DNA of 21,075 bases, from IMG/VR virus record IMGVR_UViG_3300025120_000693, positions 1-21,075 of that record, one strand, 5' to 3'. Positions 16,033-18,045 of this stretch are shown here, piece after piece; position 1 is the stretch's first letter, and each line of letters opens with the position of its first letter. The stretch comes from a virus. Below the pieces are notes generated by a model. The model was not told the origin of the DNA and made no database searches. It saw only the letters and a program-made list of their open reading frames with translations. The position numbers and the translations under genes were made by a program.

Positions 16033-16224
16033 TTATTTTATCCTTTTTATTGATATTAATTTTGCCCGTCCACCCCTTTTTAGAGTTCCGAACCGATCCT
16101 TCTTCAATCTAGTTCTGAAGATGTAAGATAGGGCTTGATTTTCGTCATTAGCCCACTTGTCAGATTTCTGTATATTGTTAGAAGGGATGTCGTTCCTCTG
16201 TATAGTTATTTGATACTCATTCAT
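16033..16224 (-). CDS. Small basic protein (63 aa) overlapping the methyltransferase end
   Basis: I take ATG 16224 (M-N-E-Y-Q-I-T) as the start. A TTG at 16248 would extend it deeper into the methyltransferase gene. The start overlaps the methyltransferase stop by 8 bp. The 63 residues end in a basic tract with L-K-K-D-R-F-G-T-L-K-R-G-G-R-A-K-L. The helix around A-L-S-Y-I-F-R-T-R plus the basic tail suggests DNA or RNA contact. The family is unknown. Tight overlap suggests co-translation with the methyltransferase. Confidence 0.6.
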   Translation of the reverse strand: MNEYQITIQRNDIPSNNIQKSDKWANDENQALSYIFRTRLKKDRFGTLKRGGRAKLISIKRIK

Positions 16225-17611
16225 ATAGTCTACTAAACAGGGTAACAAAAGCCTTTGAAGCTACTTGTGGAACAACTCCGTTCCCCAAGAGCCTAAGTCT
16301 GTCGATCCTATGGGAAGACCCATTAGCTGCTCCACCCAATCCGGGTTGAGCTTTCCGCTTGCCCTCTGGAGGTTTGGCTGTGACTCTAGGTGCTTCCCAC
16401 TCTTCTTGAGGCTCTCCAGGTCTATTGGGGAATCGGTAGTTGGACGGCTCGATGGATCGTATTCTACCATCTGGGGCAGGGCATCCATCCTGCTCTTGCC
16501 ATCCTTGCGGATCATACTCTCTGGTCTGTAGCCACCCTTGTAATCCCTCGCTCTTGGCGTTGCCCACTTCTTCTGCTCCTCGTGAGTCTCCACCGCATCC
16601 CTCAGCTTGGCTCCAAAGGTCTGGTTGCTCTTGTGCCTCTTGCTCTTGAACACTCCGTCCTCTATCACCGTCTCTATCCGACCGCCCTCCGCATCCGATG
16701 TTCTCGGTGTTGGAAAGTTTGTGGCTTCCTCGGCTCTGATCGCATCTGCGGCTCTCCTTACCTTCAGATATAGTTTCATCGAGTCCTTGTATGCTTGCAC
16801 CGACGTTTCGTCCACCTGCTCCCTCAAGTTCGATGGATCTGTCCTGCCCTTCCGACTTGTCGTCGCTTGCCTCATCGCAGCCTCGTAACTCCTTGGTGGT
16901 AGGGTATCCATCGTGTTGGGTGTTGCCCAATTCCTGGCTTGATCCGCTAGGGGTATTCCCCCGTTGACCTGTTTCTCCTCCTCCAGTAAGGCTATCTTTT
17001 CTCTGAGTTGGATGTTGTTCCATTTGCCTTTTTTGATTTGTTCCAATCTCATTCCCCCAGATGTTTCCGCAATCGTTGGCGTGGGCCAAGATGAAGACTC
17101 TTTTTCTTTGGTGAGGTGCGCCAACTTCACTCGCTGAGAATACTCCTGCCTCTGCATAGTAACCCAATCCTTCCAGTTCTCTGAGGACATATTGGAGAAC
17201 CGATTCTCCCTCGGCTGTTTTTGCTGAGATAATTCCTTCAACATTTTCGAGGAAAACAATTCTAGGTTTGCACTCCCGGATTCCGTCTCGGATGTAAGGG
17301 AACAGATGTCTGGGGTCTTCAGTTCCGCGACGCGCTCCTGCATTTGAGAAAGGCTGACACGGGAATCCTCCAGAGAGGATGTCCACCTTTCCACAAAATT
17401 TTCCGAATGGGAAGGCTTTAAGATTAGAGAAGATAGGTGCTGTATCCAAGACACCCGTTTCCATCTCTTTGACCAAGTTGGCGATGCAGTAGGTTTCGAT
17501 CTCCACATAAGCGATTTCTCTGAGAGTTGGGAAAACTGCTCGCAGTCCACGCCCAATTCCTTCATATCCGCTACATAGCGAGAGGTGTGTAAGTTCTTTG
17601 GTATTATCCAC
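16217..17611 (-). CDS. dcm: Cytosine-5 DNA methyltransferase (Dcm type), GTG start, overprinted target-recognition region
   Basis: The 464-residue protein carries the C5-methyltransferase motifs: I, S-L-C-S-G-Y-E-G-I-G (11-20); II, Y-V-E-I-E (35-39); IV, G-G-F-P-C-Q-P-F-S with catalytic Cys85; VI, E-N-V-E-G (122-126); VIII, Q-R-K-R-V-F-I-L-A (168-176); X, G-N-G-V-V-P-Q-V-A (443-451). It transfers a methyl group from SAM to cytosine C5, probably shielding phage DNA from host restriction. Residues about 180-430, where the target-recognition domain should be, are low-complexity and rich in Gly, Glu, Gln, Ser and Asp, with four short L-x-N-x-like repeats. The whole gene lies within or beside a second same-strand frame. 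The start is GTG 17611, interlocked with ATG 17613 (ATGTG) behind one AAGGA site. Confidence 0.9.
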   Translation of the reverse strand: MDNTKELTHLSLCSGYEGIGRGLRAVFPTLREIAYVEIETYCIANLVKEMETGVLDTAPIFSNLKAFPFGKFCGKVDILSGGFPCQPFSNAGARRGTEDPRHLFPYIRDGIRECKPRIVFLENVEGIISAKTAEGESVLQYVLRELEGLGYYAEAGVFSASEVGAPHQRKRVFILAHANDCGNIWGNEIGTNQKRQMEQHPTQRKDSLTGGGETGQRGNTPSGSSQELGNTQHDGYPTTKELRGCDEASDDKSEGQDRSIELEGAGGRNVGASIQGLDETISEGKESRRCDQSRGSHKLSNTENIGCGGRSDRDGDRGRSVQEQEAQEQPDLWSQAEGCGGDSRGAEEVGNAKSEGLQGWLQTREYDPQGWQEQDGCPAPDGRIRSIEPSNYRFPNRPGEPQEEWEAPRVTAKPPEGKRKAQPGLGGAANGSSHRIDRLRLLGNGVVPQVASKAFVTLFSRLYE

Positions 17612-17613
17612 AT
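16261..17613 (-). CDS. W-x-T-P repeat protein overlapping the methyltransferase in another frame
   Basis: The 450-residue frame starts at ATG 17613, 4 nt after AAGGA, two bases before the methyltransferase GTG. It ends 44 bp before that gene does. Residues 1-170 are Trp/Ser-rich (L-M-W-R-S-K-P-T, W-S-K-R-W-K-R, W-T-S-S-L-E-D). Residues 176-385 hold four repeats headed W/F-x-T-P at 176, 229, 300 and 350, usually continuing D-x-x-G-G and ending in an amphipathic helix. The tail has L-N-P-D-W-V-E-Q-L-M-G-L-P-I-G (422-436). Where this frame looks like a normal protein, the methyltransferase frame is low-complexity, arguing that this frame is under selection. From memory, proteins with T-P-N-T-M-D-x-L-P-x-R-S and L-N-P-x-W-V-E-x-L-M-G motifs occur in many phages, often mislabelled as methyltransferase. 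The function is unknown. Confidence 0.72.
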   Translation of the reverse strand: MWIIPKNLHTSRYVADMKELGVDCEQFSQLSEKSLMWRSKPTASPTWSKRWKRVSWIQHLSSLILKPSHSENFVERWTSSLEDSRVSLSQMQERVAELKTPDICSLTSETESGSANLELFSSKMLKELSQQKQPRENRFSNMSSENWKDWVTMQRQEYSQRVKLAHLTKEKESSSWPTPTIAETSGGMRLEQIKKGKWNNIQLREKIALLEEEKQVNGGIPLADQARNWATPNTMDTLPPRSYEAAMRQATTSRKGRTDPSNLREQVDETSVQAYKDSMKLYLKVRRAADAIRAEEATNFPTPRTSDAEGGRIETVIEDGVFKSKRHKSNQTFGAKLRDAVETHEEQKKWATPRARDYKGGYRPESMIRKDGKSRMDALPQMVEYDPSSRPTTDSPIDLESLKKSGKHLESQPNLQRASGKLNPDWVEQLMGLPIGSTDLGSWGTELFHK

Positions 17614-17637
17614 TGTATCCTTTTTTTTATTTTGTTA

Positions 17638-18045
17638 TTATTGTTTAGCACTAAGAATTAGTGCATCTTTGTTGTATAAATATCCAACCGTTTTATCTAT
17701 TGACTTAGTATTCTTGAAGTCCGTATGCCAAGGCATCTCTCTTTCTTGGAATCTAAAGTCATAGTTATTCCTAATTAATTTTGAAATGTTCCAGATGTAA
17801 AGTAAAAATTCAAACTCATTCACATATATGAAGTCCTTCTTAACTGATTCGGCAATGCCAGTATTGGTATCCACCTTCAGCTGCTCGATTATCCAAGGGT
17901 CGTAAGACTTTCTTCTGGATTTTATTTCAAACAGGTAGTTGTCATTTTCGTAATCGAAATAACTAAATTGGTCTACAGCCTTGATGAGCTTATTCATCTT
18001 AGGAAATAAAACCATTAACTGCTCTGCTACTTCGTTCTCCTTCAT
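17638..18045 (-). CDS. Small PD-(D/E)XK-like protein next to the methyltransferase
   Basis: The 135-residue protein contains F-D-Y-E-N-D-N-Y-L-F-E-I-K-S-R (30-44). D31 followed by E40-x-K42 on a hydrophobic strand is the catalytic signature of PD-(D/E)XK nucleases. A helix with conserved-type Tyr/Lys (S-Y-D-P-W-I-I-E-Q-L-K-V-D) follows. The C-terminal M-P-W-H-T-D-F...K-T-V-G-Y-L segment resembles small phage PD-(D/E)XK proteins that I recall beside replication genes. It overlaps the upstream exonuclease by ATGA and ends 25 bp before the methyltransferase pair. It could be a structure-specific nuclease, or, since it borders a methyltransferase, a restriction-like partner. The first is more likely in a phage. 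Confidence 0.68.
   Translation of the reverse strand: MKENEVAEQLMVLFPKMNKLIKAVDQFSYFDYENDNYLFEIKSRRKSYDPWIIEQLKVDTNTGIAESVKKDFIYVNEFEFLLYIWNISKLIRNNYDFRFQEREMPWHTDFKNTKSIDKTVGYLYNKDALILSAKQ

Follow-up and report, generated by a model that had tools for sequence, protein, structure and literature searches.

A proposed new, widespread variant of the naturally split C5-methyltransferase with a putative cassette-built specificity subunit in the other frame

Two overlapping genes in a phage replication module

The DNA analysed here, which we refer to as the window, is a whole IMG/VR virus record of 21,075 bases. Its minus strand contains two long genes that share about 1.35 kb. Gene A (positions 16217..17611) starts with a GTG codon at 17611 and encodes a protein of 464 residues, the putative alpha subunit of a C5-cytosine DNA methyltransferase. 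Gene B (16261..17613) starts with an ATG codon at 17613, lies in the +1 frame relative to A and encodes 450 residues that we assign as a nested beta (specificity) subunit. A preliminary description of this DNA gave coordinates, lengths and motifs for both genes that agree with ours. It described A as a methyltransferase with convincing motifs I-VIII and X, which is borne out by a PF00145 match through motif VIII and a nearly invariant motif X at the end of the protein, and it described B as having four W/F-x-T-P units and a closing LNPDWVEQLMG, which we confirm.

The genes around A and B form a phage replication module encoding an exonuclease, an Erf-like annealing protein, an endonuclease VII, a DnaB-like helicase and a replication initiator, and the gene neighbourhood in phage C75C1 is similar. 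Directly upstream of A and B is a 135-residue gene (17638-18045) with a nuclease-like YLFEIKSR stretch. This gene is present in few relatives only (L004, L006 and L076) and found no match in PHROG.

Both frames are protein-coding

We used B as a query to identify 80 viral relatives of the locus, and reduced these to a non-redundant set of 47 sequences less than 90% identical in B, 45 of which were used for statistics. Both the A and B frames run full length in nearly all of the 80 loci. We compared this openness with chance by holding the protein of one frame fixed, shuffling its synonymous codons and counting stops in the other frame. With A fixed, the 45 homologues would be expected to contain ~120 B-frame stops over A residues 1-178 and 173 past B residue 180, but none is observed in either region; for B overall there are 0 stops against ~290 expected. 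With B fixed, 344 A-frame stops are expected, and 43 of the 45 homologues have none (0.03 expected). All 33 A-frame stops that are observed are confined to two loci, L057 and L068. The third frame contains roughly the expected number of stops. The shuffling test also holds for the distant viral and bacterial loci described below after removal of close copies.

Substitution patterns separate the overlap into two parts. Where B overlaps motifs I-VIII, the third (wobble) position of A is the second position of B, and the pairwise difference at this position is 0.32; at third positions in those neighbouring single-frame genes that offered the most pairs, it is 0.59-0.61. The N-terminal half is thus constrained in both frames. 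Across the cassette region the differences at B positions 1, 2 and 3 are 0.20, 0.15 and 0.49, and motif IX has the same pattern (0.17, 0.16 and 0.44). Because the third position of B is the most variable, this region evolves as B-frame coding sequence. Cassettes of the same type have an identity of 0.76 in the B frame versus 0.44 in the A frame.

Coding DNA often contains long alternative frames, and B could in principle be a spurious open frame generated by the codon usage of A. This explanation can be given hardly any credence in view of the complete absence of B-frame stops under synonymous shuffling, the conservation of the start, order and motifs of B, and the finding that in the cassettes B is the better coding frame of the two. 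On these comparisons of homologous sequences, both frames are protein-coding. The preliminary proposal of two long genes in different frames therefore survives the two sequence-based outcomes that would have refuted it, namely B-frame stops in close relatives, of which we found none, and a lack of conserved B residues beyond what A forces, which the observed conservation exceeds; both frames are open in nearly all relatives, with stops far below chance.

A is a probable catalytic half without motif IX

Motifs I-VIII of A occupy residues 9-175 (17087..17587, minus strand), as assigned from alignments and a PDB profile match, and include the catalytic PCQ at 17354-17362. The PF00145 profile matches A with E=3e-34 over residues 9-214 only, the match ending at profile column 183 of 324, and the A profile also matches M.HhaI in a PDB profile search. 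phrog_363 matches A residues 2-456. A thus has motifs I-VIII of a C5-methyltransferase, with PCQ and ENV as invariant columns, and it also has the C-terminal motif X (GN.VVP; LRLLGNGVVPQVA, residues 439-451, 16259..16297, minus strand), in which LRLLGNGVVP is nearly invariant in the family. The motif X columns of phrog_1008 (289-319) match the tail of A weakly (E=0.0044).

The A chain itself includes neither the variable region nor motif IX; both the units resembling a target-recognition domain (TRD) and motif IX are in frame B. The A residues between motifs VIII and X form a low-complexity linker (residues ~180-390, 16442..17074, minus strand). To judge from the substitution pattern, this linker looks like a passenger of B, with constraint in this part of the overlap acting mainly on B.

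B corresponds to the recognition segment of single-chain relatives

All segments of B are on the minus strand. An N-terminal domain (residues 1-175, 17089..17613) overlaps motifs I-VIII of A and is followed by four cassettes beginning with W/F-x-T-P units at residues 176, 229, 300 and 350. These are cassette 1 (WPTPTIAET..., residues 176-228, 16930..17088), cassette 2 (WATPNTMD..., type T1, residues 229-299, 16717..16929), cassette 3 (FPTPRTSDAEGG..., type T2, residues 300-349, 16567..16716) and cassette 4 (WATPRARDYKGG..., type T6, residues 350-421 including a variable spacer, 16351..16566). The cassettes lead into the nearly invariant motif IX (LNPDWVEQLMGLPIGSTDL, residues 422-440, 16294..16350), with LNPDWVEQLMG at residues 422-432.

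The relatives that reveal what B corresponds to are found in actinobacterial phages, where x-P-T-P units and an LNPxWVExLMG motif occur in one frame of a single-chain protein. Mycobacteriophage mcgavigan and Gordonia phage Jabberwocky each encode a single chain in which motifs I-VIII are followed by several L-P-T-P units, motif IX (RLxAAFxEWMM) and motif X; the motif IX segment of these chains, RLAAAFPEWMMGWPAGWV or RLNAAFAEWMMMLPAGHV, precedes motif X. Mycobacteriophage Peaches has two tandem genes, gp77 with motifs I-VIII and gp76 with PTP units and motifs IX and X. We compared B-type proteins with the C-terminal halves of the single-chain and tandem relatives using hhalign and obtained a match over the cassettes and motif IX (97.3%, E=1.7e-11). 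The window's own B family matched the same halves at 95.8% (E=7.4e-9). Each of these E-values refers to one comparison of small alignments. The PHROG profile 1008, which matches the window B with E=5.9e-18, also matches the C-terminal half of a single chain (E=4.6e-72) and Peaches gp76 (E=1.7e-79). The hhalign and PHROG matches together place the four units of B at the variable, target-recognition position and identify LNPDWVEQLMG as motif IX. B is the counterpart of the TRD-IX segment of the single-chain relatives. On this homology it is most likely the specificity half of the enzyme, comprising target-recognition cassettes and motif IX, and probably does not have a new function.

Because the same units are found in frame in the single-chain relatives, the cassette and motif IX part of B corresponds to a TRD and motif IX that moved to the +1 frame. 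The preliminary description had argued for overprinting, with the second protein dictating the sequence of the target-recognition region. The B-type substitution pattern and the shuffling results uphold the second part of this argument, but the single-chain relatives show that the cassette and motif IX part was not overprinted de novo. Of the roles that had been suggested for the second product, supplying specificity to the enzyme or partnering it is the option favoured by the homologues.

Two further actinobacterial phage loci are related. Arthrobacter phage JayCookie has a two-gene split like that of Peaches, in which gp81 (L104 388-1662) contains many LPTP cassettes followed by motifs IX and X, and is downstream of a separate gene annotated as a cytosine DNA methylase. 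In Gordonia phage Baddon (L086 1535-2284, 1489-2556) the x-T-P cassettes are in the +1 frame, and all of motifs I-VIII, IX and X are together in a single frame. It is possible that this locus encodes a cassette-only second subunit or is a frameshifted relative of Jabberwocky.

The N-terminal domain of B is an extra domain that is absent from the single-chain forms. It has invariant residues that include W47, R50, W147, R155, R161 and K163, and related N-termini occur in Sphingomonas, an Acidovorax phage and a Synechococcus phage. Its function is unknown; perhaps it has a docking role.

Profile searches of B found no Pfam or NCBIfam match. By profile B is therefore not a PF00145 member, although it may still function within such an enzyme. 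When B or the single-chain C-terminal half was used for PDB profile searches, no methyltransferase was retrieved and motif IX of M.HhaI was not reached; the link between motif IX and known enzymes thus depends on the single-chain relatives alone. AlphaFold models of B alone have a mean pLDDT of 58 for the 450-residue window copy and 55 for the 308-residue copy of L076, and a Foldseek search of the PDB with these low-confidence models gave no fold match. A poorly predicted model of the isolated protein might be expected if the subunit folds on its partner.

The tryptophan of the motif IX consensus LPxGWT (W437) is present in at least 90% of the family. The window copy reads LPIGSTD, with serine at this position, as does L004. 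Since a nearly invariant residue is replaced, activity of the window copy in particular is not assured. The replacement of GWT by GST could also be taken to mean that B is still translated but is no longer a specificity subunit, the overlap being a relic. We regard this as very unlikely because B is under protein constraint and its cassettes are kept and exchanged across many phyla.

Cassettes are shuffled between phages

The 47 non-redundant B proteins contain 176 units, mostly 2-6 per protein. We clustered the units at 60% identity with the x-x-T-P letters excluded, as a trial at 40% chained most of them together. This gave 22 recurring types and 31 unique units. Types occur at varied ordinal positions and in many combinations. 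Those of window cassettes 2 and 3 (T1 and T2) each have 17 units, found at ordinal positions 1-3, and that of cassette 4 (T6) has 8 units at ordinal positions 2-5; cassette 1 has no same-type partner at 60% identity in the 47 proteins. A cassette similar to window cassette 2 is also found on a Paenibacillus polymyxa plasmid.

Phages that are only about 50% identical in the N-terminal halves of B share units that are 84-89% identical and are located at different positions, which indicates that cassettes are exchanged between phages. The inference that a cassette is a recognition module, like those of type I specificity subunits and multispecific phage methyltransferases, fits these observations, although no target has been measured. 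The recurrence of the types in so many combinations makes the array a natural experiment for reading a recognition code, since methylomes could show which target belongs to which cassette type.

Loci with closed or shifted frames

In L057 (3545-4430), L063 and L068, A stops just past motif VIII and many further stops interrupt the linker. Motif X is nevertheless retained further on in the A frame, and B is intact. The A linker therefore seems to be dispensable as protein. L097, L237 and L241 are likewise closed in A after motif VIII, with motif X in a separate A-frame ORF. We identified no clear start with a Shine-Dalgarno sequence for the separate motif X ORF in any of these six loci, which may possibly encode a three-piece enzyme or undergo recoding.

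The closure of frame A between motifs VIII and X at L057, L063 and L068, and an order of pieces along the DNA that is the same as in the single-chain enzymes, would be compatible with a single chain rebuilt by ribosomal frameshifting, with a +1 shift past motif VIII to read the cassettes and motif IX and a return shift to read motif X. Such a mechanism would need two efficient shifts. It would require neither the stop-free B frame upstream of motif VIII, with its conserved start, nor an A frame without stops throughout the cassettes, as seen in 43 of the 45 homologues, and we consider it improbable. The spurious-ORF and frameshift readings were both judged unlikely on the basis of synonymous shuffling and openness upstream of motif VIII.

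A different arrangement is seen in L066, in which a late frame switch places motif IX in the third frame and motif X in frame B. This suggests a frameshift or a sequencing error.

A double start for two genes

The two genes begin within a single ATGTG (17609..17613, minus strand), in which the ATG (17611-17613) is the start of B and the GTG (17609-17611) the start of A. A Shine-Dalgarno-like AGGA (17618..17621, minus strand) precedes the ATG by 4 nt and the GTG by 6 nt, and apparently serves both starts. ATGTGG is conserved in 43 of the 47 non-redundant homologues, and 38 of the 47 have a Shine-Dalgarno-like motif, mostly 3-7 nt from the ATG. L081 and L056 have lost the GTG; A there has a separate ATG a few bases upstream, and the ATG of B is retained.

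Initiation in both frames has been shown for suitably spaced AUGUG in E. coli, in vitro as well as in vivo (PMC9841429). The two cases have in common an overlapping pair of start codons that open two frames behind one Shine-Dalgarno sequence, and they differ in that the E. coli study concerned reporters and a few E. coli genes (PMC9841429) whereas the phage starts precede a long conserved protein pair. Dual initiation at the window ATGTG is inferred by analogy with this precedent, and the ATGTG makes it directly testable in the A/B pair.

A model for a split methyltransferase

We propose, with good confidence, that A and B are the catalytic subunit and the nested specificity subunit of a split C5 methyltransferase with shuffled cassettes. 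One ribosome-binding site and the overlapping ATG of B and GTG of A would yield both proteins from one message. A would contribute motifs I-VIII, a linker whose sequence is of little importance and a motif X that folds back onto the catalytic domain; B would contribute its N-terminal domain, the tandem x-P-T-P target-recognition cassettes and motif IX. The two are envisaged to form a heterodimer, and thereby one active enzyme, with recognition of the DNA falling to B and its methylation to A, in the manner of M.EcoHK31I. The heterodimer is inferred, as are dual initiation, the recognition role of the cassettes and a role against restriction; there are no expression, binding or methylation data. 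Defence against host restriction is the usual role of phage methyltransferases, and this enzyme, too, would methylate phage DNA, probably to the same end. With cassettes gained, lost and swapped between phages, several targets would probably be recognised and would change by recombination.

Split enzymes of related design are known. In M.EcoHK31I (YGGCCR) the gene for the small subunit overlaps in another frame. A and B are alike in this layout. The large subunit of that enzyme has motifs I-VIII and X, and motif IX is on a second, smaller polypeptide (PMC3404938), a division that A and B also show. They differ from M.EcoHK31I in being phage-borne, in overlapping from the first codon, and in the tandem recognition-like cassettes and N-terminal domain that B has in addition to motif IX. 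M.AquI also consists of two polypeptides, and is split in the variable region (PMC3404938). Its plan is shared by Peaches gp77/gp76. It differs from the arrangement described here in that motif X is on the small subunit, while here it is on A, with B nested in A.

The TRD of M.EcoHK31I is predicted to be in the large subunit (PMC3404938). By this precedent, A might be a complete methyltransferase that recognises its target through its own linker, with B as a coexpressed regulator or other partner; B does have an extra N-terminal domain missing from the single-chain forms. Such an arrangement is unlikely given that the linker is poorly conserved as protein (0.44 in A against 0.76 in B for same-type cassettes), that it is closed by stops in L057, L063 and L068, and that the single-chain relatives have x-P-T-P units and motif IX inside the enzyme.

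The assignment of recognition to the cassettes of B also has a parallel in the multispecific C5-methyltransferases of Bacillus phages, which are single chains with tandem recognition units in the variable region. B likewise has several tandem units at this position, mostly 2-6 per protein and of 22 recurring types, with their recognition role inferred; the difference is that here the units are on a separate overlapping gene. We know of no x-P-T-P units in the Bacillus phage enzymes, for which PMC12707154 cites Trautner et al. (1996).

Distribution and annotation

For each locus, the layout was assigned according to which frames contain motifs I-VIII, IX and X. The nested layout, with motif IX in the +1 frame and motif X in the A frame, was found at 78 of 80 distant viral loci and, always in +1, at 74 of 80 loci in bacterial genomes. 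B served as the query for both sets, and the strength of its match set their ranking. Because a B-based search favours long open B frames, they show the breadth of the layout and not its prevalence. Nested loci occur in Proteobacteria, Acidobacteria, Planctomycetes, Chloroflexi, Bacteroidetes, Firmicutes and other phyla, and named cases include Bacteroides phage BS-TP4, Acidovorax phage Alfacinha1, Burkholderia phage BcepC6B, Lactobacillus phage Lc-Nu and plasmids. Our literature searches found no description of the nested methyltransferase arrangement. We regard the locus as a new variant, of wide occurrence, of the naturally split C5-methyltransferase, one whose putative specificity subunit is built from cassettes in the other frame. 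It is also a strong and phylogenetically broad case of a long gene overlap, of which convincing bacterial examples are few.

A further proposal is more tentative, and we rate its chances at slightly below even. On this view, the nested loci represent a class of C5-methyltransferases that is widespread among phages and bacteria but has largely gone unrecognised, with a combinatorial B nested in +1. Each x-P-T-P cassette would have its own target, and phages would reprogram methylation through the exchange of short cassettes that have to be open in two frames; L057, L063 and L068 would perhaps be three-piece forms.

Nested loci are usually annotated as one gene, in some cases with only frame A. 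An exception is Paenibacillus phage Pagassa, for which both overlapping frames were deposited as genes (PAGASSA_59/_60). In the passages that we found in the paper on Pagassa and related phages, no role is described for the nested gene. PAGASSA_59/_60, phrog_1008 and phrog_363 ('DNA methyltransferase') comprise proteins of the same kinds as A and B, but are known as annotations only. Genome pipelines usually retain a single gene where two overlap. Annotation therefore probably lacks half of many phage and prophage methyltransferases, and an enzyme of the nested kind may be taken for inactive if it was cloned without B.

Some database entries show the converse pattern. In Alfacinha1 (L085 1493-2626) only frame B is annotated, under the name methyltransferase, and the catalytic frame A is unannotated. 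The nested B is likewise the only annotated gene in a Sphingomonas plasmid (L091 1905-2996) and in Synechococcus phage Ssp-JY39 (L082 3001-4116), and across these three loci the sole annotated frame is labelled methyltransferase or hypothetical. In PHROG, the nested protein is split into pieces (phrog_1008, phrog_27243 and phrog_26627), some of 'unknown function', and phrog_1008 mixes nested proteins with tandem beta proteins and tails of alpha.
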